From the NCBI RefSeq assembly GCF_000002425.4, contig NC_037267.1, positions 6,585,396 through 6,649,395 on the forward strand: 64,000 nt of DNA, given 5' to 3'. Positions 15,192 to 63,560 of the stretch are shown in pieces; position 1 is the first letter of the stretch; each line of letters starts with the position of its first letter. Under the pieces are notes generated by a model. That model had not been told where the DNA came from. It did no database searches and saw only the letters and a list, made by a program, of their open reading frames with translations. The DNA is from Physcomitrium patens. Lineage: Eukaryota > Streptophyta > Bryopsida > Funariales > Funariaceae. Both the position numbers and the translations under genes were made by a program.

Positions 15192-18100
15192 ATGTCGTCC
15201 TTAAGTAGGGAACTCGTGTTCCTGATCTTGCAGTTCCTTGATGAGGAAAAGTTCAAGGAAACAGTGCATAAGTAAGTGACTTCTCCTCATGTGAGTGGCT
15301 TTGACCACAGTAATAAAATTTACCACTAGTTCAGAATTTCCATACTTATGGGCATGTGTCCTTTGGATTTGTACCTTTCATTTTTTCATGTTTTCATTTT
15401 TTTCAGTTCCTTTTTTAATTTGGTTAGTACAACCTACTGCGGTATCTCCATGTGAGCGAATATTCCCATTTTTTCCTTTTTCCTTGGTAGGTTCTTGTTA
15501 AGACGAGGAATTGGTTGATGATTGAATTGGACATGAACGAAAGTATACATGTTATTTATTTATTTATTTATTTATTTGTTGTAGTTCAAATCCGAACGGT
15601 TCTGGTGGATGTCAACGCAATAAAATCGAAACGTTTATTATTGTGCCTCTGTTTACGGCAATCATCAGTCAAATTCTTCAGTGTTTCCCCTAGGTGGACT
15701 CTGGTTACGTGTAAATCTCGATGCGTCAGGCTCTTAACGATAACCCGTGATAATATCGCAATGCTGCCTGCTTCAAATGAAACTTGAGTTATTTCGAAGA
15801 TTTTCACGCAAGCCTCTATTTTTTCCACTGCTTTTACTTACTGGGCTTATAATGCACTTTACCCAGGTTGGAACAAGAGTCCGGATTCTTTTTCAATATG
15901 AAGTACTTCGAGGACCAAGTCCAAAGTGGTGAATGGGAGGAGGTGGAACGATATTTATCTGGGTTTACTAAAGTCGACGACAACCGCTATTCCATGAAAA
16001 TCTTCTTTGAGATTCGCAAGCAGAAGTATTTGGAAGCTCTGGATAAGTATGTAGCGATTTGTGCCGCGTGCGGGCTCATTTCTACCACTTGAAGCAAAAC
16101 ACATCAGATGAATGTTTGTTTAGAGGAATGGCTGTGTCTTGGTTTCAGGGTCGATCAGATTATTCGCCAATCATCTGGATGGGACCAAGGCGTAGTGTGT
16201 ATGATTTGTTTTCAAACAAATTGTTCACCTAAAGTTTTTTGTTCTTGTGCAGGCAAGACCGGGCTAAGGCTGTGGACATACTTGTCAAGGATCTGAAGGT
16301 TTTCTCATCTTTCAATGAGGAACTCTACAAGGAGATTACTCAGCTTCTAACTCTAGAAAACTTTAGGTGAATGCCTTCGCCAGCACAATTTCATGTGTGA
16401 CTGGGGGCCTCATCTCACCAAATGTGTGAAGTATTCAGGGTAACCTGTACGTTCGATTATAGTGAAGTGTTTGTAGCTCTATAGTGTTACAAGAAGTCGT
16501 AGCCAAATGACGAAAACTCAAGCGGCCCCACTCTGTGCTTGGTATTTGGTGCAGAGAAAATGAGCAGCTGTCAAAGTACGGAGATACGAAATCCGCCAGA
16601 AACATTATGCTTCTAGAACTCAAGAAGCTTATAGAAGCTAATCCACTCTTCCGAGACAAATTGGCTTTTCCGTCATTGAAAGCATCCCGCCTGCGCACCC
16701 TTATTAACCAGAGGTAACGTTTAGCCTCTGTACCACCTTAAATTACCATGTTCAAAGTTAAGTAGTATACACAGTTGTTTATTGTCGATCCGACATTACT
16801 CTGATTGTGATGGTTGAATTGCTCCAGCGTAATTATCGTCTTAGTTCTTGTCTTAAACTAGTCAATTTCATCTCGAGATAGCTACTAACGTGCCGAAATG
16901 AAACTGCTTCAAAAGGTGGTATCCGATGCTGAGTTGCTCATCGTTTTTTGTATGCAACATTTTCAACGTTTCATGTGTTGTTTTAAATATTCTTTTCATT
17001 GTACTTAATGAGAATTTAAATAAGAATTGCTTTCTTGTGCTTATTTTGTTACCCTGCAGTCTCAACTGGCAGCACCAGCTTTGCAAGAACCCAAGGCCGA
17101 ATCCTGACATCAAGACACTGTTTATTGATCACACTTGTGGACCTCCTAATGGTGCCCGTGCCCCACCGCCTACCAACAACCCCTTGGTGGGTGGGCTTCC
17201 GAAGCAGGGTGCCTTTCCTCCTCTTACTACTCACAGCGTAAGTGTGTGCAATCATCATTGGTTTCTACTTCGCATTTCACTGTAAAATTCTTTCAAAGTT
17301 TGGGTTTAGAATCGCTGCAATTGACAGTGAACAAAACTATGATGAATAATTTTATGATTACTCTCAAACAAACCGAATTGCCCGATGTCAAGTTTATTTC
17401 AAAACTTGTTTTCATCCACTCATATTTTAATGTTCTGTTTTGGTGCGGTTGTTCTTAAGTTCTGCTAACCGGTGGTATTTGATGACTTCAGCCATTTCAA
17501 CCAGCACCACCCTCTGCAAGTGCTTTAGCTGGATGGATGGCTAACCCAAACCCACCAGCTCCACATGCCCCAGTCGCGAATGGGCCAGCTGCCCTGACCG
17601 CTCCCCCTAATTCAGGTTCATCTTTGACCCTCTCACACTTAATTTGAAGTTTTGATTTAGAGTTGAAAAGTCAGCTTTTAGTCATATCTGTCTTCTTTTT
17701 TCTTGAATTCTTGAACCTGAATTTAACATTTTAAATCAAACATTTTCAATGCTCCCTAGTTATGATTAACGTGATTTGTAGTATGCGAGAAGTGTAGGAT
17801 TACGTATTGATGAATTTACTTGATGCGTATATTCCCAGCCACGTTGTTGAAGCGGCCCCGCACTCCTCCAAGCACTACACCAACCGTGGATTATCAGTCA
17901 GCTGACTCGGAGCATCTAATGAAGAGAGCCAGGCCAGGCATCCAATCAGTTGATGAGGCCAAGACAGTAAGCATCATGAGTCTCTCCTTCTCCTTTTTTT
18001 TTTTTTTTTTGTTTGTTTGTTTGTTTGTTGTTGTCGTCGTCGGCGTTGCCTCTCTAATAATGTTGTTTTGGATGGTTCGATATGTGTTTTTTTGTTCAGC

Positions 18101-31409: not shown

Positions 31410-32670
31410 CGGTTGGAATAGAGAGAATTTGCCTTAAAAAAGTAATGGATTTTTGGTTGTCGCTAATTCCTCAATTAAATCTTAAGATTAAAAAAATACA
31501 AAGTTATATATAATGTTATTCTTATAAGAGTAATTACGTCAATACATAAGCCTTAAGTATCAAAGATCACCAAAAATATGATAAAAATATTATGAATTCT
31601 TATATATCCCTAAAGTGATTTTTTTTCAAACTACAATAGTTCATATCTTATAATTGGATTGTCCAAACAAACCAAAATTTTATATGAAATATTAATATAC
31701 TTTAAAAAACTACCATAATAAATTTCAACTATAAATTCATTACACATCTTGAGATATTATCAAAATCCTAATAATAGCTTCAAACCCTTGTTTACATATG
31801 CTTATATGCAAATTTCTTCATATCTCATAAATTAAATATTTAAATATCATAAAATTTTGATATATAGCTTTTTAAGATAGTAACATTCATTTTTAGAAAA
31901 TTTGAGATAAAAATTCATCTATAAACCTAAGATGTGGCTTCAACTATTACTATCAACAAAATGACTTACTTATTGCCTTTGAATTACATATGCTATCTTC
32001 AATGCTTTATAACTTCATATAAATTCTAAATACAAATATTCTTTCACAAAAGATATAGATCTTAAAATTGTTCTTGTGATTGCACCTATTGATTTCTAAA
32101 ATTTGTCATAAAATTCTTTGTATCGTCAAAAGAGTAATAATATATCTTAAATAGATACTTTAACTTCAAACGGATATAATTCATCATCCTAATTCCATAT
32201 TCTCTAAAATTTGAACACAAATTATTGTTCAAATCTTAAATTTTATAATCTTTGCTTTTGATTCTCAAATGCTTCTTTTGAAGTCACCTAAATCCTTGTT
32301 ATGGTTGTGGATAGCCTACTAAATACCTATTGGGCATGGCCTTTGATCAATAGGGATGAAGAACTTTACTTTTTTCCTTCATCAATCCATACCTTGCTTT
32401 CATGCTTCCAAATAAATTTCTTAGAGGTTTGGATCTTCATTTTTGAGCTCCAATCTTTTCCTTAAATTTTATATTATATATCTAAATTTTATATAATTTA
32501 AACACTATAATCAATGTAAATAAATCTCAAAATAAATTTTCTTACATCAACTCTCTTTAAATTAAGTTACTAACCACTCTAATGTATATGGAAGTGGTTA
32601 TAAGTACATTTATAAATATATTATATATTTAAGTTAATTTTTACATACTATAAAGAATTATAATTTAATA
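31410..32670 (+). mobile_element. family-3 solo LTR (G3) inside element K
   Basis: About 1.26 kb that matches the reverse complement of the G2 and G1 LTRs along most of its length, including segments near 31,720-32,060 and the terminal 32,560-32,670. No internal coding region accompanies it, so it is a solo LTR. The exact ends and duplication could not be fixed. Confidence 0.7.
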
Positions 32671-32699
32671 TCAAAAAGTATTTTGCTCGATATGAAATT

Positions 32700-41584: not shown

Positions 41585-41717
41585 CTACTCAATTTTAATT
41601 TACTACATCACAAATTGATGAAAAAAAAAAACGTTCTTATTAAGTAAAACAATAAAAATCTATATCAAATTAAGTCAAACTATCTCTCATACTACAAAGG
41701 AAGAATTCAAGAGTGTA

Positions 41718-42262
41718 TGTCAACAACATGAACTAAAAAAGATGCATTAACTTAAAAAATCTATGTCAAAAGTAAAATAAAAAATAGCAATTAAGTAGTA
41801 TGTATATTATAAAGAAATTGAAATGGCCATTTCCAAAAGACAAGGAAGTTAGACACTCTTAAATCTAAACTAAAAGTAAGAAAGAAGTTGACAAGAGTGA
41901 AGAGGGCTTCATTCTTTCCTTTATATATACTATTTAACTAGGAGCTATGTCGCAATATTCTTTAGGACCTTTAATATGAGTTGACTTTATAGGATACATG
42001 CCTTCGCTTATAAGGCAAGTTTTCTATGTGTGTGCCACATAGTTAGCTTGTTCTTCAAGTTACCAACATGTGTGGTACATGGTTAACTTGTTGACCACGT
42101 TTCTAATCTAAAAAATCAATTATAGATATCTATAAAATCAAAGCAACATCTATAAAGCTTCTAAAAAGCTTCTATAGAAGATATTATAGAATTAATCTAC
42201 TTTTATATATTTTTATCTAATCATATAGGTAATTATTGGTTTACATGTATATGTCTATAATA
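41718..42262 (-). mobile_element. 3' LTR of element E (family 1)
   Basis: About 545 bp matching the reverse complement of the element A LTR throughout, from TGTCA at 41,718 to the decayed counterpart of the TGTCACGG start at 42,262. The TATA box and downstream palindrome region remain recognisable. Confidence 0.85.
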
Positions 42263-43600: not shown

Positions 43601-44361
43601 AAGGCTGAAGATAGTTTTATGTCTACTTTTGAAATCTTGAAAGTATTAATATGATTTGAGTCCCCCTATCCAATATAATATCCTTGGATAATCCATAATA
43701 TTGATAGATATGGTTAAGAAAAAACTTAGTTGTTTCTTTACTTGTGATAAATTTTATACATAGTACAAAATATGCCATTTTTGTAAAACAATCTACTATC
43801 ACAAATATAGAATCATACAAATCTGAGATTAAAAGATTCGTGATAAAATCCATAGAAATAGGAGACCGTAATTATTCTAAAATAGATAATGGCTCAAAGA
43901 GTCTATAGGATCAATGATGGGGAGTTTTTTTTATCTTGAACAAACATCACATGATTGAAAAAAAATCTTTGATTGCCTTCCACATTTGCAATCATTAAAA
44001 ATCTCTAGATATTAGCTCTAAAGTCTTGTTGTGTTCAAAATATCCAACTACTAGAAAATTGTGGTGTTCTTGAAGAACATGTAAATATACTTCTCTTTTT
44101 GAAATATATAGGCATCCTTCAAAATAAAGTAGGTTATTTTTGAATTCGAATTTAGAAGCATCATGAGACTTAGAAGAAGGATTCTTGATATCATGAAAAA
44201 GAAGATCAGAAGACATACTTGATTAAATTTATTTGACAAAAATTGAATCATCAATTAATATTGATTTCATTATTCAAAGATGAAAATTCTCACGCTTCAA
44301 AAGAATCATTATTTGTTGATCAAAAGATGCATCTCTTTCTTTTGGTGCAAGATAAGGATGT
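43600..44361 (-). pseudogene. integrase relic of element E
   Basis: One frame (43,623-43,853) holds the first catalytic region (MDFITNL) and the second Asp region (DIILDRGTQ). Another (43,995-44,216) holds the part upstream of the HHCC finger, with the phrase LQEHHNFLVVGYFEHNKTLE. Stops and frameshifts separate them. Confidence 0.85.
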
Positions 44362-45603
44362 TATCATATTGTAATTGCTTATAGTTTGTAAAAATTAATT
44401 AAGACATATAATATGTTTGTACATCTTGATGTAGATTAAAGTGGTTAGTAAATAAATTTAAAGAGAATTCATATAAGAAAATTTATTTGAAAATTTATCT
44501 ATTTTGATTATAGTGTTTATATTATATAGGATTTAGATATTTAGTATAAAGCTTAAGAGAATGTTGGAGTTTAAAGATGAAAGTCTAAACTATTAGGAGG
44601 CTTATTGGAAAGGATGAAAATAAGGTATGGTTGGATGAAGACAAGGGATGAAGACCTTATTGGTCGAATGTCATACCCAATGGGCTTCTAGGAGGCTATC
44701 CAAGGCCTTATTAGGGATTAGGATTTTTTTTTCCATGGCATTCGAGCTTTGGAGACTAGGATTAGTAAGTTTAGGATTTTGGATATAATTTGGATGAAGA
44801 GTTTGTGTAATTTCGAGTTTTTGTAAAGGAGATATAGGTATTCAAAGTTAAGATATCAAATTTGTACATACTATCATTCTTTAAAGCATAACATATGTGT
44901 ATGGAGAGTAATGAAAGATCGGCAATTGAATTTAGAAAGAAAACTTTTTTAACTACATTTTACATCTATTATTTTATGAATTCCAAGTTTTGATGAAGGA
45001 GTTATAAGGCATTGAAGATAGCACAAGTAAATCAAAGGTAGTAAGTGAGTCATTTTGTTGATAGTAATGGTTGGAGCCATATCTTGAGTTTTTCGATGAA
45101 GTTTTAGCTCAAAATTTTTAAAAATATGAGTTATTAGGTTAAAAAGCTATAGATCAAAGTTTCATGGTATTTGAGTACTTATTTTGTGAAATATGAAGAA
45201 TATAGCACGTGGGTGTATGTAAGCTAGGATTTAAAGCTACTATTAGGATTTTGGTGATAACTCAAGATCCGTAATGAATTTATAATAATTTTTTTTTTAG
45301 TAGTTTTTGAAAATATTTCAGTACTTTGTGTGAAATTTATGATTGTTTGAAGGGTCCAATCGTGAGATATGAGTTGTTGAAGTTCAAGAAATATTTTTCA
45401 TAAAGATATATAAGGTTTTAAGATACTTTATCATACATTTGGGTGTTTTTTTGGTACTTGGGCTTATATATTGATATAATTGCCCTAAAAGAGAACATAT
45501 TATATATAAAAATTTGGTACTTTTATATCTTAGACTTAATTTAGTATTTAGTAGCAACTAGAAGCCCAGTGCTTTCTTGAGGCAAACTCTCTCTATCTCA
45601 ACA
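44362..45603. mobile_element. family-3 solo LTR (G2) inside element E
   Basis: About 1,242 bp homologous along its length to G1 (58,007-59,257), inserted in E pol between RNase H and integrase. Flanked by a 4-bp duplication, atgt (44,358-44,361) and acgt (45,604-45,607), differing by one C-to-T type change. No coding interior, so it arose by LTR-LTR recombination. Confidence 0.8.
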
Positions 45604-46689: not shown

Positions 46690-46816
46690 TATCACGGATA
46701 CAGAAATACAGGCTCGAGATCTAATAAGAAGTTCAAGAAGAACTGACAAGAACTAGATTAATCAGATGAATACAAGAACAACACCAGAGAGGTGAGCTAG
46801 AGCTCCAAGAGATGTG

Positions 46817-46830
46817 TTGTCGAGACTGAA
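46817..46830 (-). promoter_or_regulatory. predicted mRNA 5' end in B LTR, complementary to its primer site
   Basis: Read on the minus strand, TTCAGTCTCGACAA begins 29 nt after the first T of the TATA box, where transcription should start. It is the exact reverse complement (14 of 14) of the sequence 2 nt inside the 5' LTR at 60,059-60,072. The corresponding place in the 5' LTR itself has two mismatches. Confidence 0.7.
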
Positions 46831-46864
46831 GAACTCTTCAGCCTCGATTCCAATATATACTCCT

Positions 46865-47145
46865 ATTTAGGAAGCTTCTCAAGCAAATTCTACCAACTAG
46901 GAAGCTTCTCAAGTAACTTCTACCAACTAGGAAGCTTCTCAAGTGACTTCTACCAATTAAGAAGCTTTTCAAGCAACTTCCACCAATTAAAAAGCTTCTC
47001 AAGCAACTTCTACCAACTAGGAAGCTTCTCAAGCAACTTCCACCAACTAGGAAGCTTTTCAAGTGACTTCTACCAACTAGGAAGCTTCTCAAGCAACTTC
47101 CACTAACTAAAAAGCTTCTCAAGGAACTTCTACCAACTAAGAAGG
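46865..47145. repeat. 30-bp minisatellite in B 3' LTR (nine units)
   Basis: Units of the form AGGAAGCTTCTCAAGCAACT plus a 10-bp tail, nine full copies and a partial one, each containing the palindrome GAAGCTTC or a close variant. It sits in U3 upstream of the TATA box. A repetitive open frame of 94 codons over it is a by-product of the 30-bp period. Confidence 0.95.
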
Positions 47146-47158
47146 TTCTAGAAGGTTC
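47141..47158. promoter_or_regulatory. four-unit heat-shock-element pattern in B 3' LTR
   Basis: GAAGGTTCTAGAAGGTTC gives alternating GAA and TTC blocks with exact 2-bp spacing four times, the optimal arrangement for trimeric heat-shock factor. Confidence 0.6.
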
Positions 47159-47202
47159 CAGAGATTTGCTTCTAAAAGGTTCTAAGGACTATGTCCTTAA
47201 CA

Positions 47203-47220
47203 TCACCCCCTCCTTTAGCT
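47203..47220 (-). other. polypurine tract of element B
   Basis: On the minus strand the bases just before the 3' LTR read AAAGGAGGGGGTGA, a typical plus-strand primer site. Confidence 0.85.
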
Positions 47221-47252
47221 TCGAGGTCTCTGAGAAGCAATATTATTATTAA

Positions 47253-49127: not shown

Positions 49128-49200
49128 TGTCACGGACATACATATAATTACCTATATGAATAGATAAAAGTATGTAAAAGTAGGTTAATTGTGTAATATC

Positions 49201-49226
49201 TTCTAGAGAAGCTTCTTAGAAGCTTC
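49201..49226. promoter_or_regulatory. GAAGCTTC pair, heat-shock-element-like, in A 5' LTR
   Basis: Two GAAGCTTC (GAAnnTTC) palindromes 3 bp apart, preceded by TTCTAGA. Spacing is one base off the perfect consensus, so this is a gapped rather than ideal element. The same arrangement recurs at 55,001-55,026 and in element D near 63,450-63,480. Confidence 0.45.
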
Positions 49227-49449
49227 ATAGATGCTGCTTTGACTTTATAGGAGTCTATAGTTGACTTTTAGGTTAGAAACTTGGTCAACAAGTTAGCCAT
49301 GTGCCACACATGTTGGAAGCTTAAAGAACAAGCTAACTACGTGGTCCATCCATAGAAAACTTGCCTTGCAAGCAAAGGCATGTGGCCTAAAAAGTCAACA
49401 TATATTGGAGGTCTTATAGAACATCGCCACGTGGCTTCTAGTTAGATAG

Positions 49450-49491
49450 TATATATAGAGGCAAGAGTGAAGCCCTCTTCACTCTTGTCAA
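49450..49491 (+). promoter_or_regulatory. element A core promoter and predicted mRNA start
   Basis: TATATATA begins at 49,450; 31 bp downstream, at 49,481, begins ACTCTTGTCAA, the 11 nt complementary to the primer site. The left arm of a perfect inverted repeat (11-bp arms, 4-bp loop, 49,462-49,487) lies between, so the start site sits in its right arm. Confidence 0.7.
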
Positions 49492-49659
49492 CTCCTTTCT
49501 TGCTTCTAGTCCAGGTTCAAGAGTCTTTAGTTTCTTGTCTTGTGGCAATAGCCATTCCAGTTTCCTTTTAATATACCTACTTGTTTATATTTTGACTTAT
49601 TATATCGAGATAGCCTTTTGGTGTATATTTTTCCTCATCGAGTCTTTGTCCTTGACAGA

Positions 49660-49670
49660 TTGACAAGAGT
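49660..49670 (+). other. self-primer binding site of element A
   Basis: TTGACAAGAGT is the exact reverse complement of ACTCTTGTCAA at the predicted mRNA 5' end. It lies 2 nt inside the LTR, the spacing expected if integrase trims two bases after CA. No tRNA-type site starting TGG follows the LTR. This is the geometry of fungal Tf1, whose first 11 mRNA bases prime reverse transcription. Element E keeps the site with one mismatch. Confidence 0.7.
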
Positions 49671-49677
49671 ACACTTA

Positions 49678-49786
49678 CAATATCAGAGCTTTGTTTTTTC
49701 TTGAGTAAGAGTGGATTACCCCTTTCTCTTGACAAGACATAAGCGTATTAGAAGTTTGCGGATTACCCACTTCTAAACTGATATTG
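49678..49786 (+). ncRNA. branched leader RNA structure of element A
   Basis: A 9-bp closing stem (CAATATCAG 49,678-49,686 with CTGATATTG 49,778-49,786) encloses two hairpins. One has stem AAGAG/CTCTT (49,707-49,730), the other TTAGAAGT/ACTTCTAA (49,748-49,776), and both loops contain GGATTACC. It lies between the primer site and gag, where retroelements carry packaging or dimerisation signals. Element B has the same layout with different stems. Confidence 0.65.
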
Positions 49787-49869
49787 TTCTTAGTATCTTC
49801 TTTGTTATCAAGTCTTTCTTTTCTTTTGTCTTGAGCAATATCAAACAAATTTTTCTTCTTAGTATCATT

Positions 49870-50874
49870 ATGGCAGAACTTGTTGAAATGAAGAGTGCAA
49901 TGGCACAAATGCAAGAGCAAATGAGGGAGTTAATGCTTGCGATGCATCAACTCAATTCACCAACACATGAAAGAACAAGAATAGCAGAAAGTGGAGATAT
50001 AGAGATGATCGGAGCTGCTTCAACATCTACAACAAATCACGTTCCTTCTCCAATTGTACAACACCCTATAAGCACTAGAGAACCAAGAATTGCCTTACCT
50101 GAGAAATTTGATGGTACGAGATCAAAGTTTCGAGGGTTCATCAATCAAGTACAATTGGCAATTGAACTTCAACCGCAAAGCTATCCAACTCCAAGATCAC
50201 AAGTCAGGTTTATTGGCACTCTACTTTCTGGTTCTGCATTATCGTGGTTTTCGTCTTTTCTTGAACAACGAAATCCAATATTGGACAATTTGGAAGCTTT
50301 TTTGGCAGAGTTTCGATCTATGTATGGTGAACACGATGCAACTCGTGTTGCAACAAATAAGATCCGAATTCTGCGACAAAGAAATCGCTCAGTAACAGTA
50401 TATGCTTCACAATTTCGACAACTTACAATTGACATCAAGTGGGATGATGCTGCACTCATCAGTCAATTTCTTTATGGATTGTAATACGAAGTAAAGAAAT
50501 TGATGCTCAACTTACCTGATCCTCAAACTTTGAGTCAAGCAATCGATTTTGCGGTAAAATGTGATAATCGACTTTTTGAATTTCGATCTGAGAATCATTC
50601 ACGGGAACCTCAACGTTATTACTCAATGACAACATCAACATCTTTGCCAAACGTACATTCGGAAGTAGAAGACATGCAAATTGACGCGGTACGTTTTAAA
50701 CCCCTAACTGAGCAAGAAAAGATTCGTCGTCGTCAAGAAGGATTATGTTTATATTGCGGAGAACCTAAGCACACTGCTCAACATTGTCCAAAGAAACGAC
50801 GCAACTATAAAATGAGGGATACGACGGTCAAAGAAGACAACATGTCGGAAAACGGATTCGTCCAGCTACAATAG
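49870..50874 (+). CDS. gag: gag polyprotein of element A (one internal stop)
   Basis: Structural protein forming the virus-like particle. Start at 49,870 (MAELVEMKSAMAQM) because elements E and A agree there; an upstream in-frame start at 49,831 is less likely. The N-terminus is heptad-like and Gln/Met-rich, followed by capsid with SALSWFSSFLE and RNRSVTVYASQF, then a zinc knuckle of CX2CX4HX4C form at 50,746-50,787. A TAA at 50,482 splits the 335-codon frame; the neighbouring codons suggest a former CAA. The pol frame opens near 50,812, overlapping the end of gag by about 60 nt in the -1 frame. Confidence 0.93.
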
Positions 50875-50879
50875 GGACC

Positions 50880-53800
50880 GTGCAGCTGGAACCTTGTACA
50901 ATTCCTAATGAAGGTCCTATCCTCTCCTCAGAACCCTCTCCTTATTTTATAATAGACTTATATTTAGGACCTAAGAATTACAAAGCCTCTGCTTTATTAG
51001 ATTCGGGAGCCTCAGCATGTTTTTTAGATGAACAATTTGTTAAAAGTCGTAAAATACCCTTTGTACAGAAACCTAAACCAGTACATGTAGAAGTCATAGA
51101 TGGTCGTCCCTTGTCTTCTGGAGATGTCACTCATGAAACTCATCCTATAAAAGTAACAATAGACGGTCATGATAGCTACATAGCTTTTAACATAATTAAA
51201 TCCCCGTCTAATCCAGTTATTTTAGGTTTATCCTGGCTAGAAAAATATAACCCTCGAATAGATTGGAATTCGCGTAAACTTGACTTTTCCAAAAGCGTTA
51301 TTAATAGTTCTACGAACCAAGTAAAAAATTATAAGTCTAGTACAGTAAAACCCGTACTGATAGGTGCAAAAGCATTTATACACGCAGCAAAAGAAGGATC
51401 AACTTTTGCTATTTATGCTGCACCTATTTCTGAAAACGTAAAGACTTCAAGTGGCATTCCAAGTCAATATCAGGAGTATCAAGACGTTTTTGAGAAAAAG
51501 AATGCAGATATTCTTCCTGAGCATCGTCCATATGATTGTTCAATCGACCTCAAGGAAGGAACTCAGCCACCATTTGGACCAATTTACAGTTTATCGCAAG
51601 ATGAGTTGGCTGAACTCAAGACATATATTGACGAGAATTTAGCGAAGAATTTCATACGCCATTCAAAATCTCCAGCAGGAGCTCCAATTCTATTCGTAAA
51701 GAAAAAAGATGGATCTTTACGAATGTATGTTGACTATCGAGGACTCAACAAGATCACAATCAAGAACAGGTATCCATTACCTTTGATATCAGGACTCCTT
51801 GACCAGTTGAATCAAGCTAAGATCTATACAAAAATAGATCTAAGAGGAGCATATAATCTAGTACGGATCAAAGAAGGAGATGAATGGAAGACTGCGTTTC
51901 GAACCAGGTATGGACATTTCGAATATAATGTCATGCCCTTTGGACTCACGAATGCACCAGCTGCTTTTCAACATCTCATGAATGATATATTTCGTGAATT
52001 CTTAGACAATTTTGTCGTCTGCTATCTAGACGATATCCTGATTTATTCCAAGAACGTCGAAGAACATGAAATACATGTTCGTCAAGTATTACAAAAACTT
52101 AGAGATGCAGGATTGTACGCCAAGATGGAAAAGTGTGTATTTCACACTACTCAAGTTGACTTTTTAGGATACATCATTTCAAATGATGGTCTCATGATGG
52201 ATTCTAAGAAAGTCCAAACAATCGTGGATTGGAAGATTCCAAGGACGGTAAGAGATGTCCAATGTTTCTTGGGATTTGCCAATTACTATCTAATCTTCAT
52301 CAAAGATTTCTCACGAGTTGCAGCTCCACTTACACGCTTCACTAGTAAAGATAAATTTCAATGGAATCAAGAAGCGGAAGCAGCATTTGAAGCCTTGAAG
52401 ACATTGTTTGTCTCTGCACCAGTCTTATATCGTGTTGACTTTTTCAAGGCATTTTTTATGGAAACAGATGCATCAGATTTTGCCTTGGGTGCAGTTTTAT
52501 CACAAATGGGAACAGATGACAAACTCCATCCGATAGCTTTTCATTCAAGAAAATTCTCAGCAGCCGAGATCAATTATGAGATCCACGATAAAGAACTTCT
52601 TGCAATCGTGGATTCCTTTCAAGAATGGCATCATTATCTAGAAGGCGCTTCTAGTCCAGTCACTGTGTATACAGATCACAAGAACCTCGAGTATTTCATG
52701 TCAACACGCGTGTTGAATCGTCGTCAAGCTCGTTGGAGTATGTCTTTGTCAAGATTCGAGTTCATTATCACTTATCGGCCAGGAAAACAACAAGGTTTAT
52801 CTGATGCCCTATCTAGACGTTCTTATTTTGCACCAAAAGAAGGAGATGCAGCTTTTGAGCAACAAAGAACGGTCCTCTTGAAACCGGAGCAATTTCATCT
52901 CCGAGCAATGAAATCAACATTAACTGTTGATTCAACTTTTCTCAAGCAAATCCAGTCCAGTATGTCCTCAGACCCTCTTGTTTATGATATCGAGAATAAT
53001 TCTTCCAAGTCTCATGATCCTTCTAAGTTTGAGTTCAAGAATAATCTATTATATTTTGAAGGACGCCTATATGTTCCAGAAGGAGAAGCACGTTTACGTG
53101 TTCTTCAAGCACGTCATGACTTTCCAGCAGCAGGGCACTTTGGATATAATAAGACTTTGGAACTCATATCAAGAGATTTTTGGTGGCCACAAATGTGGAA
53201 GTCAGTCAAAGACTTTGTACAATCATGTGATATTTGTTCAAGATCAAAAATTCCTCGTCATCGACCTTACGGACTTCTTCAGCCATTACCTATACCAGAA
53301 CAACCATGGTCTTCTGTTTCTATGGATTTCATCACAGATCTTCCAAGCTCAAGATCTTATGATTCTATATTTGTGATAGTAGATCGTTTCACCAAGATGG
53401 CACATTTTATGCCATGTACAAAATCTATCACAGGTGAAGAAACAGCTAAGCTTTTCATTGATAATATCTATCGCTATCATGGATTACCTAAAGATATCAT
53501 ATCGGATAGGGGAACTCAATTTGTGTCAAGATTCTGGAGGACTCTTTTCAAGATTTTAAAAGTGGACATAAAGCTATCTTCGACTTTCCATCCTCAAACT
53601 GATGAACAAACAGAGCGCGTAAACCAAGTCTTAGAGCAATATTTAAGGTGTACTATCAACTACCAACAAGATGATTGGACAATCCTTCTGCCATTGGCAG
53701 AGTTTGCTTATAATAATACAGTACATTTTTCCACGCAACAAACACCTTTCTTTGCCAATTATGGCTATCATCCACGACTTGATACTTTTGATTTTTCAAA

Positions 53801-54143
53801 AGTTGATAATCCTGCAGCAGAAGATATGACAAATCGGTTGTCAGAGTTACATGCAATAATGAAGGCGCAGTTGAAGAAAGCTCAAGAACGACAAAAGATA
53901 AATGCAGATGTATATCGTAAAGAGCAACCACAACTCAACGTGGGTGATAAGGTATGGCTACTTCGTCGCAATATCAAGACCACTCGACCTTGTGACAAAT
54001 TGGACTATCGTAGGCTTGGCCCCTTTTCTGTTTCTGAACAGATCAACCCAGTTGCATATCGGTTACATCTACCGGAGTCAATGAAGATCCATCCTGTATT
54101 CCACGTGTCTCTTCTTGAACCATATAAGACAGTGGATATATAA
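50880..54143 (+). CDS. pol: pro-pol polyprotein of element A (PR-RT-RNase H-IN)
   Basis: 1,087-codon open frame; the frame actually opens about 70 nt upstream, inside gag, without a good ATG, so expression by -1 frameshift is likely. Protease DSGAS at residues 41-45; reverse transcriptase with [21 protein letters not shown] and YLDD at 382-385; RNase H with TDAS (D530) and YTDHKNLEYF; integrase with an HHCC finger (about 745-785) and D816, D876, E912 (D-59-D-35-E); then FHVSLLEPY. All catalytic residues are intact. A TAA at 54,141 cuts off the chromodomain, which continues in the same frame. Confidence 0.97.
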   Translation: MQLEPCTIPNEGPILSSEPSPYFIIDLYLGPKNYKASALLDSGASACFLDEQFVKSRKIPFVQKPKPVHVEVIDGRPLSSGDVTHETHPIKVTIDGHDSYIAFNIIKSPSNPVILGLSWLEKYNPRIDWNSRKLDFSKSVINSSTNQVKNYKSSTVKPVLIGAKAFIHAAKEGSTFAIYAAPISENVKTSSGIPSQYQEYQDVFEKKNADILPEHRPYDCSIDLKEGTQPPFGPIYSLSQDELAELKTYIDENLAKNFIRHSKSPAGAPILFVKKKDGSLRMYVDYRGLNKITIKNRYPLPLISGLLDQLNQAKIYTKIDLRGAYNLVRIKEGDEWKTAFRTRYGHFEYNVMPFGLTNAPAAFQHLMNDIFREFLDNFVVCYLDDILIYSKNVEEHEIHVRQVLQKLRDAGLYAKMEKCVFHTTQVDFLGYIISNDGLMMDSKKVQTIVDWKIPRTVRDVQCFLGFANYYLIFIKDFSRVAAPLTRFTSKDKFQWNQEAEAAFEALKTLFVSAPVLYRVDFFKAFFMETDASDFALGAVLSQMGTDDKLHPIAFHSRKFSAAEINYEIHDKELLAIVDSFQEWHHYLEGASSPVTVYTDHKNLEYFMSTRVLNRRQARWSMSLSRFEFIITYRPGKQQGLSDALSRRSYFAPKEGDAAFEQQRTVLLKPEQFHLRAMKSTLTVDSTFLKQIQSSMSSDPLVYDIENNSSKSHDPSKFEFKNNLLYFEGRLYVPEGEARLRVLQARHDFPAAGHFGYNKTLELISRDFWWPQMWKSVKDFVQSCDICSRSKIPRHRPYGLLQPLPIPEQPWSSVSMDFITDLPSSRSYDSIFVIVDRFTKMAHFMPCTKSITGEETAKLFIDNIYRYHGLPKDIISDRGTQFVSRFWRTLFKILKVDIKLSSTFHPQTDEQTERVNQVLEQYLRCTINYQQDDWTILLPLAEFAYNNTVHFSTQQTPFFANYGYHPRLDTFDFSKVDNPAAEDMTNRLSELHAIMKAQLKKAQERQKINADVYRKEQPQLNVGDKVWLLRRNIKTTRPCDKLDYRRLGPFSVSEQINPVAYRLHLPESMKIHPVFHVSLLEPYKTVDI

Positions 54144-54463: not shown

Positions 54464-54886
54464 ATGGAGAGCCAACAACCAGCGGATTCAACTCAAGAAC
54501 CTTCGTTTGCTGACTTACCGGATGAGACATTGCGATTGTCACAACCTTCAAGACGACGCAACCGAAATGAAGACCCTCAAGAACGACATGTTCTTCCTCG
54601 AATAGATGGTGAGATACAACGCGTTTGGTATCACGACCTTGGAAGAGATTCTCGATGTTTGGTGATATTATTGGAGATAGGAACGACTCCTGATGGTGTT
54701 TCAAATGTATTATTTGAAGGAAGTTATGAAGGCCTCAACAGTGATCAAATAACAGGGTGGTCTTCTCGCCCTGGAATGGGACACTATCGATGGCTAAGAG
54801 GACCCATCAACTATCTTCGAAGAGAACAAAGATCAGAGTATGTAGCAAATACAATTCGCCGCATATTAGATTTTCTCAATATATAA
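54464..54886 (+). CDS. ORF3, conserved unknown protein of element A
   Basis: 140-codon intact frame starting 95 nt after the chromodomain, in a different frame from pol, ending 41 nt before the 3' LTR. I do not recognise the family. It has an acidic/polar N-terminus, an Arg-rich patch SRRRNRNEDPQER, a hydrophobic strand CLVILLEIG, then MGHYRWLRGPINYLRRE and a C-terminal helix ending RRILDFL. No signal peptide or membrane segment, so it is not an obvious envelope protein. Copies exist in D (four substitutions seen over 119 residues), E (decayed) and, divergently, B. Conservation between families suggests a function. Confidence 0.82.
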   Translation: MESQQPADSTQEPSFADLPDETLRLSQPSRRRNRNEDPQERHVLPRIDGEIQRVWYHDLGRDSRCLVILLEIGTTPDGVSNVLFEGSYEGLNSDQITGWSSRPGMGHYRWLRGPINYLRREQRSEYVANTIRRILDFLNI

Positions 54887-54927: not shown

Positions 54928-55457
54928 TGTCACGGACATACATATAATTACCTATATGAATAGATAAAAGTATGTAAAAGTAGGTTAATTGTGTAATATC
55001 TTCTAGAGAAGCTTCTTAGAAGCTTCATAGACGCTGCTTTGACTTTATAGGAGTCTATAGTTGACTTTTAGGTTAGAAACTTGGTCAACAAGTTAGCCAT
55101 GTGCCACACATGTTGGAAGCTTAAAGAACAAGCTAACTACGTGGTCCATCCATAGAAAACTTGCCTTGCAAGCAAAGGCATGTGGCCTAAAAAGTCAACA
55201 TATATTGGAGGTCTTATAGAACATCGCCACGTGGCTTCTAGTTAGATAGTATATATAGAGGCAAGAGTGAAGCCCTCTTCACTCTTGTCAACTCCTTTCT
55301 TGCTTCTAGTCCAGGTTCAAGAGTCTTTAGTTTCTTGTCTTGTGGCAATAGCCATTCCAGTTTCCTTTTAATATACCTACTTGTTTATATTTTGACTTAT
55401 TATATCGAGATAGCCTTTTGGTGTATATTTTTCCTCATCGAGTCTTTGTCCTTGACA
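54928..55457 (+). mobile_element. 3' LTR of element A
   Basis: 530 bp, identical to the 5' LTR except one base by eye, with the same TATA box (55,250-55,257), palindrome and GAAGCTTC pair. Followed by the right target duplication ATACC. Confidence 0.97.
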
Positions 55458-58002: not shown

Positions 58003-58006
58003 TCGT

Positions 58007-59257
58007 TGTCGTAGTGTAAATGCTTATAATATGTAAAAATTAGTTAGAACACATTAAATGTTAATAAATCTAAATGTATGTTAGAGTGGATAATAGATTA
58101 AATTAAAAAGAATTGGTATGAAAAAATAATATTTTGTTTTCCTTACTTAGTTTGATTATAGTATATAAAAGTTATAGAACCTTAATGTTAAGTATGAAGC
58201 CTTGAGAGGAGATAGGGGCCTAAAGATGAAGATTTAAACGAATAGGAGGTTAATTGAGAGGGATGAAACCAAGGCATGGTTGGATGAAGGTAGAAATAAG
58301 GATCTTCATCGCCATTGGTCGAAATCCATGCCCAATGGGCTTTTAGGAAGCTGCCCACGACCTGAAAAGGGTTTCGGCGACTTCAAAGAGGCCATTAGGA
58401 AATCAGAGGCAAGGATTGTAAAGTTTAAGGTTTTAGCTACAGTTTTTGTGCAAATTTTATAGGGTTTGGAGTTAGGGTGAATAAGTTATAGCCGTTTGAA
58501 GTTAAGGTGTCAATTTGAGACCTACTGTTAGTCTTTTGTGTTTAAGAGGAGTCTTACGGAAGCTTTTGGAGATCGGAAGATGCTTTTGGAAGGGCAACTT
58601 CAAGACATACATCTTTTGCGAAGAAAATTTTGCATTTGGAGCTTATATGAAGGAGTTATAGGGAGTTAAAGACAGCGCATTCAAATCAAAAGCAGTAAGT
58701 GAACGGTTTTGTTCAAAGTAGTGTTAGGAGCCATAACTTGAGTTTTCGAACGAAATTTTGGCTCAAACTTTGGAAGAATGTAAACATTTGTGTTAAGAAG
58801 CTATCTATACAAGTTTCGTGGAATTTGGACTTATGGTTTGTGAGATATGAAGAAAATTGTGCGCGGGTATATAAAGATTAGGGTTTGAAGCGACTGTTAG
58901 GATTTTGACGATATCTCAAGATCCGCGACGAATTTGCGGTTGAAATTTGTTGTAAAAATTAATAACTACATATCAGTACTTCATGTAAATTTTGATCTTT
59001 TTTGGACGGTTGGATCAAGAGTTATGAGGTGTTGAGGTTCGGGAGAATTTCCACACAAGGATATACAAGGTTTTAGAGTACTTCTACCATATTTTGGCTG
59101 TTGTTGGTTATTTAAGACTTAAATATTTGGTGTAATTGTCCCAAAAAGAGAATTTATATATATAAGATTAGGATTTTCTTATTTTAAGCTTGATTGAGCA
59201 ATTAATGATAGCCAGAAGCCCAGCGCTTTCTTAAGGCAAAACCTCTCTACCTTGACA
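58007..59257. mobile_element. family-3 solo LTR (G1) inside element B gag
   Basis: 1,251 bp beginning TGTCG and ending TTGACA, flanked by the 4-bp duplication tcgt (58,003-58,006 and 59,258-59,261). Excision restores the gag reading SLRQGMRS, aligned with LRQRNRS of element A. No coding interior. Copies G2 and G3 share its length and sequence. Confidence 0.88.
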
Positions 59258-59261
59258 TCGT

Positions 59262-60058: not shown

Positions 60059-60072
60059 TTCAGTCTCGACAA
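60059..60072 (-). other. self-primer binding site of element B
   Basis: On the minus strand TTGTCGAGACTGAA lies 2 nt (GT) inside the 5' LTR. It is the 14-nt reverse complement of the predicted mRNA start in the 3' LTR. The sequence has nothing in common with the element A site, but the position and relationship are the same. Confidence 0.68.
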
Positions 60073-60253
60073 ACTATCACGGACACAAAAATACAGGCTC
60101 GAGATCTAACAAGAAGTTCAAGAAGAACTGGCAAGAACTAGATTAATCAGATGAATACAAGAACAACACCAGAGAGGTGAGCTAGAGCTCCAAGAGATGT
60201 GTTCTCGAGATTGAAGAACTCTTCAACCTCGATTCCAATATATACTCCTATTT

Positions 60254-60495
60254 AGGAAGCTTCTCAAGCAACTTCTACCAACTAGGAAGCTTTTCAAGCG
60301 ACTTCCACTAATTAGGAAGCTTTTCAAGCAACTTCCACCAATTAAGAAGCTTTTCAAGCAACTTCTACCAACTAGGAAGCTTCTCAAGCAACTTCCACCA
60401 ACTAGAAAGCTTCTCAAGCGACTTCCACCAATTAGAAAGCTTCTCAAGCAACTTCCACTAACTAAAAAGCTTCTCAAGTAACTTCTACCAACTAA
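60254..60495. repeat. 30-bp minisatellite in B 5' LTR (eight units)
   Basis: Eight full copies and one partial of the same GAAGCTT(C/T)-centred unit as in the 3' LTR, which has nine. The change in copy number since insertion shows the array is unstable. Confidence 0.95.
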
Positions 60496-60513
60496 GAAGC
60501 TTCTAGAAGGTTC
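60496..60513. promoter_or_regulatory. perfect four-unit heat-shock-element pattern in B 5' LTR
   Basis: GAAGCTTCTAGAAGGTTC: GAA, TTC, GAA, TTC with exact 2-bp spacers. Further TTCTAGAAGGTT and CTAGAAGGTTC copies follow within 60 bp, on the upstream side of U3. Confidence 0.65.
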
Positions 60514-60581
60514 CAGAGATTTGCTTCTAGAAGGTTTTAGAAACTTGTCTCTAGAAGGTTCTAAGGACTATGTCCTTAACA

Positions 60582-60586
60582 TAATC
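60582..60586. repeat. target-site duplication of element B, upper copy
   Basis: TAATC, the partner of 46,685-46,689. Confidence 0.88.
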
Positions 60587-61560
60587 AATACATCCATAAT
60601 GATCCATTTTTTTTCTTCACAAATAGAATTAGAGTTCTTACTAGAGATTTAGAATGACATATAAAATTTTTGGCTAGATTCTCTTTAATATACTTCTTGA
60701 GTTCTGTCAACTCATTTTGTAATAAATTATAGATTGGTCCAAATGGTGGTTGTGCTCTTTCTTGAAGGTCAATTTAGCAGCCATAGAGATGATGTTTTGG
60801 AAGAGTATCCATATTTTTTTTTTCTTAAATACATCTTGAAATTCTTGATATTGGCTTGGAAAGCCGCTTAAAGTCTTTGCACCATTAAAAATAAATGTGG
60901 CATAAATGACATAAGATGATCTTTTGTAACATGCAAGAAAGCTCTTATACATACAAACATAGGTTTAATTGTATTAGACTTGTGATTTTATACTTGATTA
61001 ATTATATTCTTAGTTATATTTTTAGAAAAGTTGAAAATACAAGAAATCTAATCTATTCAAGGATTGTACTTTTTTAACAACAATAAGCCTAAAATGATTG
61101 GATTAGAAGGAGATCTAATGATATTAAATGCCACAAAGCTATTATAACCATTAGTTATTATTTCTATAAGAAGGATTTTGTGAGTAATATTTTTAAAAGA
61201 TAATGAATGACCATCTATGATTTCTATACTGAACAAGTTTAGTTTTCGTCACTAAAGATATGCTAAGACTTTTAATAAATTCTTCATCTAAGAAACATAT
61301 TAAGACTCTTGAATCTAACAAGGTAGAGGCTTTGTAATATTTAGGTCATAAAATAATATTTAATATAAAACAAGGAGAAGGTTCTTACGAGAGAATACGA
61401 CCTTTATGAGGTATTGTACAAGGTTCCAACCGCACAATCCCTATTGTAACTAGACAAACTTGTTTTTTAATATATTGTCTTCTTTGAAATTTATACTTCT
61501 CATTTTATAATTGTGTCGCTTCTTTGTATGATATTGAGTAGTGTGCTTAGGTACTCCATA
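60587..61560 (-). pseudogene. RT start and protease relic of element E
   Basis: Continuation of E pol above element B. The part at 60,600-60,720 matches the phrase before VDYRGLNK; 60,707-60,952 matches the protease-RT link (FPSQYQEFQDVF, as in A); about 61,200-61,400 matches protease with the catalytic motif decayed. Confidence 0.82.
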
Positions 61561-62434: not shown

Positions 62435-62644
62435 AATAATACTTAAAAAATAAATATCTAATATTGCTCAAGACAAGCAAAAGAAGGGATTTAAAAATAA
62501 AGAAGATATTAAGAATAATATTAGTTTAGAAGAGGATAATCTGTAACTTCTAATATGCTTATGTCTTATCAAGAGAAAGGGATAATCCGCTCTTAATGAA
62601 AAAAAGACAAAGCTCTAATATTGTAAGTGTACTCTTGTTAATCT
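62435..62644 (-). ncRNA. decayed leader and self-primer site of element E
   Basis: Matches the element A leader. The closing stem is AATATTAG/CTAATATT, still paired, and both GGATTACC loops are recognisable (GGATAATC, GGGATAATCC). The primer site reads TTAACAAGAGT, one base from A. Confidence 0.6.
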
Positions 62645-62842
62645 ATCAAAGACATGAATTGGAAGAAGATTCATAAACTTGAAAAATTTGTGTCAAAGGA
62701 AAAGTAACAAAATAGCAATAAAATAGTATGTATACTAAAAGAAAACTAAAAAAGCTATTGCAAAAAGATAAGAAAATTAGACATTCTTAAATCTAGACTA
62801 AAAGGAAGAAAGGAATTGACAAGAGTAAAGAAGGCTTCACTC

Positions 62843-63022: not shown

Positions 63023-63560
63023 TGTCAAGGACAAGAACTCGATGAAAGCTAAAGAGTAAGTGAGACTTTTCTCAAAGAAATAGGACAAAATAGAATAATG
63101 TATATTAAGAAAGAAATTAGAATGGCTATTGCCAAAATACAAGAAAACTAGAGACCCTTGAAACTAGACTAGAAGCAAGAAAGGAGTTGACAAGAGTGAA
63201 GAGGGCTTCACTCTTGCCTCTATATATACTATCTAACTAGAAGCCACATGGCGATGTTCTATAAGACCTCCAATATATGTTGACTTTCTAGGCCACATGC
63301 CTTTGCTTACAAGGCAAGTTTTCTATGGATGGACCACGTAGTTAGCTTGTTCTTTAAGCTTCCAACATGTGTGGCACATGGCTAACTTGTTGACCAAGTT
63401 TTTAGCCTAAAAGTCAACTATAGACTCTTATAAAGTCAAAGCAGCATCTATGAAGCTTCTAAGAAGCTTCTCTAGAAGATATTACACAATTAACCTACTT
63501 TTATCTACTTTTACATACTTTTATCTATTCATATAGGTAATTATATGTATGTCCGTGACA
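63023..63560 (-). mobile_element. 3' LTR of element D
   Basis: 538 bp from TGTCAAGG to CCGTGACA on the plus strand, the reverse complement of a family-1 LTR. GAAGCTTC palindromes, TATA box and start-site palindrome are intact. Confidence 0.92.

Follow-up and report, generated by a model that had tools for sequence, protein, structure and literature searches.

A signature of probable self-priming in nested LTR elements of Physcomitrium patens and a variable dinucleotide beside the primer-binding site

In this study, related LTR elements were observed nested within one another in a 64-kb window of the genome of the moss Physcomitrium patens, the window being the whole stretch of DNA analysed (64,000 nucleotides), and the coordinates of their features are collected in Table 1. 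The oldest is D/E, into which element B has been inserted, and element A has in turn been inserted into B. Element A is flanked by GTACC and ATACC, a 5-bp target duplication with one difference, and element B is bounded by the target-site duplication GATTA, its LTRs being identical at 460 of 483 aligned bases. D/E lies on the minus strand, with its 3' LTR ending at 41717 and its 5' LTR at 62644; from the break points of their pieces, we infer that D and E form a single element, the LTR pieces of which are identical at 276 of 331 aligned bases. The 3' LTR of a fourth copy, C, ends at 63023, and C continues past the right edge of the window. The B LTRs also carry tandem 30-bp repeats 5' of the TATA box (46767-47244, with 7 registers, and 60182-60599, with 5 registers). 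A repeat of about 1.25 kb, with copies 68-70% alike, was noticed at 44357-45600, 58005-59261 and 31412-32673, two of these copies sitting between parts of E and of B and the third elsewhere in the window. A TOPLESS zinc-finger match falls within the reading frame 16902-17282, and neither tRNA genes nor Rfam matches at gathering score were detected in the 64-kb window.

Table 1. Features of the nested LTR elements, in window coordinates
Feature	Position	Strand	Basis or remark
TATA box of A, TATATATA	49450..49457	+	sequence
Putative mRNA 5' end and self-primer of A, ACTCTTGTCAA	49481..49491	+	sequence match; intact in 36/38 copies
5' LTR of A, 530 bp	49128..49657	+	529/530 identical to 3' LTR
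2-nt spacer of A, LTR end to PBS	49658..49659	+	sequence and LTR boundary
Putative primer-binding site (PBS) of A, TTGACAAGAGT	49660..49670	+	sequence match; intact in 35/38 copies
Variable dinucleotide AC just past the 11-nt PBS of A	49671..49672	+	22/100 listed copies differ
Predicted structured leader of A, stem closing two hairpins carrying GGATTACC	49678..49786	+	fold of 49678-49791, z -5.12
gag reading frame piece of A	49834..50481	+	Pfam Retrotrans_gag
pol reading frame of A (RT, integrase pieces)	50880..54143	+	stop just 5' of chromodomain
3' LTR of A	54928..55457	+	LTR pair
3' LTR of B	46690..47202	-	sequence match
Candidate self-primer of B kept in 3' LTR, AGTCTCGACAA	46817..46827	-	match to PBS extends to 46830, 14 nt
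5' LTR of B (B holds A)	60075..60581	-	sequence match
Candidate self-primer site of B in 5' LTR, two bases different	60202..60212	-	sequence match
Putative PBS of B, TTGTCGAGACT, 2 nt past its LTR	60062..60072	-	sequence match
Dinucleotide GA past the B PBS	60060..60061	-	most variable columns of family sample
Candidate self-primer of D/E, 3' LTR	41888..41898	-	sequence match
Candidate self-primer of D/E, 5' LTR	62816..62826	-	sequence match
Putative PBS of D/E, TTAACAAGAGT, one base off	62631..62641	-	sequence match

With its LTR pair, gag, reverse transcriptase (RT), integrase and 5-bp target duplication, element A has the characters of a Ty3/gypsy LTR retrotransposon. Its chromodomain, lying past the in-frame stop, reads EFEVEEIL...LVHWRGY...TWEP and may include the residues of the aromatic cage. 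The stop itself (54141-54143) directly precedes the chromodomain and is absent from the near-identical P0012, a sequence 98% identical to A in RT which carries Pfam PF00385. P0012 and P0013, 96-98% identical to A in RT, were encountered on short contigs (lgn, ena), P0012 in 36 of them with a longest of 6147 bases, and these contigs are perhaps metagenomes containing the moss or a relative. Past the chromodomain region, an extra 140-aa reading frame of A (54464-54886) is covered when copies C and E are aligned at the DNA level, and it gave no Pfam match. Viral contigs scanned with the RT piece of A yielded seven pattern matches, none of which was confirmed. In an RT tree of 40 rows, picked from the 120 listed of 7966 matches, A was placed among unnamed relatives between two groups, namely Asteraceae with Closterium (10 rows) behind a branch of 0.62 (100/100) and amphibian rows (9) behind another (100/99); several open forks, a long-branch warning and the lack of a named Tcn1 or Tf1 row leave the clade unsettled in this tree. 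A very probably belongs to the Tcn1-clade chromoviruses, described as having an aromatic-cage chromodomain (PMC6317226) of group I (PMC3350952). By abundance and type, A is probably RLG1 of P. patens, which is described as the most abundant element of this moss, making up 47% of its class I space, with a chromodomain integrase, transcription in protonema and a possible relationship to fungal elements (PMC7466625); the term PBS is absent from the text of that paper.

The initial annotation had proposed that 11 nt of the LTR downstream of the TATA box pair with a site at the LTR boundary, and this was confirmed, since 49481-49491 is the exact reverse complement of 49660-49670, the match extends no further than 11 nt, and TATATATA starts at 49450, 31 nt upstream of 49481. 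The site had been placed 2 nt inside the LTR, which needs correction: the LTR ends at 49657, so the PBS begins 2 nt beyond it. This primer/PBS pair is the sole complementary match of at least 8 nt between the 5' LTR of A and the following 60 nt. Among random pairs of 36-nt and 21-nt stretches drawn from the same window, an 11-nt complementary match appeared in 135 of 400000, or about 3 in 10000, a rate which is if anything too high because the window contains repeats. The putative mRNA start near 49481 is predicted from the position of the TATA box.

The same layout was found in element B, where TTCAGTCTCGACAA of the 3' LTR (46830-46817) is the reverse complement of the 14 nt at 60072-60059, located 2 nt past the 5' LTR, the spacer thus being that of A. 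In this copy, the 14-nt match reaches 3 nt beyond the supposed mRNA start. The chance control for this match was run with 12-nt words, and 73 of 400000 random pairs matched over 12 nt. The candidate primer of B lies about 29-32 nt past the start of its TATA box. Comparing ACTCTTGTCAA of A with AGTCTCGACAA of B, the primers differ at positions 2, 6 and 8. The primer sequence of A is also present in both D/E LTRs.

Covariation of primer and PBS among copies had been suggested as a check, and its outcome was divided: between families A and B it was observed, all three of the differing positions being compensated in the PBS, while within a family it was almost absent. Using a query located past the PBS, we collected 38 A copies and likewise 38 B copies. 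Co-change of primer and PBS was seen in one of the 38 A copies, and a matching primer change accompanied none of the eight A copies in which, genome-wide, the last PBS base was changed; in B, co-change was recorded in 2 of 38 and 1 of 37 copies, as transitions that could have arisen by chance. Rewriting of the PBS from the primer predicts that changed primers come with changed PBSs, so the co-change test gives little support. The rarity of co-change within a family may reflect decay after insertion, yet the initial annotation had listed a partner that changes freely among the findings that would refute its reading.

Conservation is not special to the primer and the PBS. In the 38 A copies the mean variant fraction was 0.0072 in the primer and 0.0096 in the PBS against 0.0325 in the R/U5 between them, so that variation in either site is between a quarter and a third of that in R/U5; however, the stretches before the primer (0.0064) and after the PBS (0.0088) are equally constant, and 16 of 156 R/U5 11-mers are as constant as the primer and 17 of 156 as constant as the PBS. 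Across 28 B copies, the primer (0.0422) and the PBS (0.039) showed no extra conservation in comparison with R/U5 (0.0483) and the leader (0.0287), and the exact AGTCTCGACAA was kept in 21 of 38 B copies.

RNA folding was considered as evidence for self-priming and rejected, as a leader with its middle shuffled pairs equally well. The predicted primer/PBS duplex in A had a probability of 0.95 (35 of 38 copies scored) as against 0.949 with the middle shuffled, and 21 of 40 shuffles were at least as high as the real A leader, so folding adds nothing beyond the complementarity itself. For B the predicted duplex had a mean of 0.49 (27 of 38 copies scored); the pattern was not found in the 3 A and 11 B copies left unscored. 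The central duplex is present in the best fold of A and in 10 of 24 B copies, a set that leaves out L052 and five loci lacking the primer pattern. Tf1 has been described as forming a three-duplex 'pretzel' (PMC10085805), which was not evident in the predicted folds here; its side duplexes were not evident on an unsystematic inspection of the folds of A and B. Behind the PBS of A, the predicted structured leader is perhaps a packaging or dimer signal. The B leader is predicted to fold into two such modules in tandem on the minus strand (60049-59951 and 59940-59822) with z values of -0.66 and -2.81, the piece giving -0.66 having been cut a few bases short, and the closing stem varies between leader modules with complementarity kept by eye.

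The proposed absence of a tRNA-type site was borne out for ordinary tRNA 3' ends, TGG being missing from the 40 nt past the A and B LTRs and from the 39 nt past that of D. The TGG of a PBS pairs with the CCA end of a tRNA, and a PBS starting with TGG, as in the tRNA-primed plant chromoviruses Tekay, Reina, CRM and Galadriel, was found in none of A, B and D.

We further observed that, in families A and B alike, variation rises sharply at the very point at which an 11-nt primer would end. In the genome, the exact PBS of A with the next two bases left free gave 2242 matches and the reversed control none; among the 100 of these matches that were listed, all from one contig (C1), the dinucleotide was AC in 78, GC in 11, GT in 6, AT in 3, and AA and CC in one each. 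Genome-wide, with every other base of the pattern unchanged, the last PBS base was changed in only 8 copies, and 15 copies had a change at the third base past the PBS. The odds ratios of the hot spot were 62 against the last PBS base and 33 against the third base, taking the 100 listed of 2242 and estimating the unchanged number as 78% of 2242. Counting single-base changes only, the first base had changed in 12 and the second in 4 of the 100 listed, which, relative to the last PBS base, gives odds ratios of 34 and 11, respectively. The closest A sample showed a difference at the dinucleotide in only 3 of 38 copies.

In B, the two bases rank first and second for variability, both among 461 columns in a set of 28 copies and among 221 columns in a set of 38. 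The 28 copies are what remained of 30 loci once L039, which is the copy in the window itself, and L052, which had insufficient aligned length, had been dropped, and they were tallied with a query that omits the two bases, a PBS-spanning query (29 copies) being biased towards the GA of the window. Their first base was G in 9, T in 17 and A in 2, and their second A in 5, T in 5, C in 17 and G in 1. In the set of 38, one of 39 having been dropped, TC was recorded in 18, GA in 8, TT and GC in 4 each, and GT, AG, AC and AA in one each. One pattern-based parse covered 26 of 30 loci, 11 of which were without the PBS string by the pattern used. This 2-nt hot spot is a new feature of the present analysis and may be a trace of self-priming; among open-access titles, we found none on such a variable self-primer site.

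Taking the expected Tf1-type layout, its compensated recurrence in B and the lack of a tRNA-type site together, the self-priming reading is supported, and we consider it probable, at roughly 0.88, that element A is a Tf1/sushi-type (Tcn1-like) moss chromovirus that primes its own reverse transcription. In such a cycle, the mRNA would begin at or beside A49481 and its first 11 nt would fold back onto the PBS, the RNase H of the element's RT would cut after nucleotide 11, and the 11-mer would then prime minus-strand DNA. Plus-strand strong-stop DNA would copy the 11-mer and end at the 5' end of the primer RNA, making the PBS rewritable from the message's own start. A ragged copying end, whether through starts 1-2 nt upstream, untemplated bases or both, would leave two variable bases past the PBS. 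With a start at the C at -1, G would be expected there, and G is first in 17 of the 100 listed A copies and 13 of 38 B copies; with a start at -2, the expected dinucleotide would be GA, which was seen in 8 of 38 B copies and none of the 100 listed A copies. The T found first in 22 of 38 B copies would need another source, either an ancestral state or untemplated addition, and the RT of Tf1 has been reported to add non-templated bases in vitro (PMC3185545). A cap-templated C was rejected as the main source of the variable base, C being first in one of the 100 listed A copies and none of 38 B copies. On balance we lean slightly towards the view that the dinucleotide is a footprint of copying the 5' end of the self-primer, rewritten at transposition through starts 1-2 nt upstream or untemplated addition.

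The complementarity itself could in principle be fortuitous, or an inverted repeat kept for some other reason such as an RNA stem in packaging or translation, and the data are not all against this: primer/PBS pairing would also form a stem, duplex formation is independent of the intervening sequence, and co-change within a family is almost absent. Nevertheless, we regard this account as very improbable, for a match expected in A at about 3 in 10000 is found again in B, spelled with different letters and having an identical 2-nt spacer and an almost equal distance from the TATA box, and a plain stem leaves the jump in variation exactly at the end of the 11-mer unexplained. Priming by a tRNA or tRNA fragment elsewhere was also considered, for example at TATCAGAGC (49681-49689), a sequence similar to the initiator-Met site of plant elements. 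Both TATCAGAGC in A and TATCAGAG in B resemble the acceptor end of the initiator tRNA-Met, but the TGG partner of the CCA end is missing in A, B and D, the site begins 24 nt past the LTR, and it shares bases with one arm of a predicted stem (CAATATCAG pairing with CTGATATTG). An initiator-tRNA site at 49681 was accordingly rejected, and tRNA priming of this kind is highly unlikely.

For the dinucleotide, the competing account is a subfamily polymorphism or a mutation hot spot independent of priming, such as a methylated cytosine. The changes in A, mostly transitions from A to G and from C to T among the 100 listed of 2242 copies, would suit it. On the other hand, A to G on that strand is not cytosine decay, the changes in B include many transversions and show no tie to overall similarity (permutation p 0.225, 28 copies), and the hot spot is common to both families at one place, nucleotides 1-2 past the 11-mer. 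The missing link to overall similarity led us to reject subfamily polymorphism as the source of the B dinucleotide, and the competing account as a whole appears improbable, if less so than the two alternatives to self-priming.

With reference to known systems, the first 11 RNA bases of Tf1 of Schizosaccharomyces pombe are complementary to its PBS, and RNase H cuts between bases 11 and 12 (PMC7175516). Element A resembles Tf1 in the 11 nt, in a PBS adjoining the LTR and in being a chromodomain Ty3/gypsy element; it differs in its plant host, and in that start, cleavage and priming in A are predictions from sequence. Self-priming has been demonstrated for Tf1 and elsewhere inferred from sequence, and it was also proposed for Tj1 of Schizosaccharomyces japonicus, whose PBS is complementary to its own mRNA 5' end (PMC4600332); Tj1, unlike A, is fungal, and its transposition was assayed. 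The signature had been thought to be possibly undescribed for plant elements, a claim to novelty that does not stand, as Neumann et al. in 2019 already predicted self-priming there (PMC6317226). Main-text passages of that paper predict it for most Tcn1-clade chromoviruses of both mosses and club mosses, and state that no other plant chromovirus group uses it. They also predict it for the TAR lineage of plant Ty1/copia, which like A is a plant lineage with predicted self-priming but belongs to a different superfamily. Their descriptions of the Tcn1 clade are given without primer sequence, between-family co-change or variable dinucleotide. For SM-Tcn1 of Selaginella, Novikova (2010; PMC2864245) reported evidence for neither tRNA priming nor self-priming. 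The self-priming signature of A is thus real and well-formed as read from its sequence, and known in kind; the putative 2-nt footprint is new.

If the footprint reading is true, the genome records the exact primer length and also how ragged the transcript start is. The hot spot would then be a genomic readout of the primer end that could be sought in any self-primed family, which could help to tell true self-priming from chance inverted repeats. Again, if the element is indeed the most abundant one in a model plant and is, as reported, transcribed in ordinary protonema, self-priming could be tested directly in the plant.
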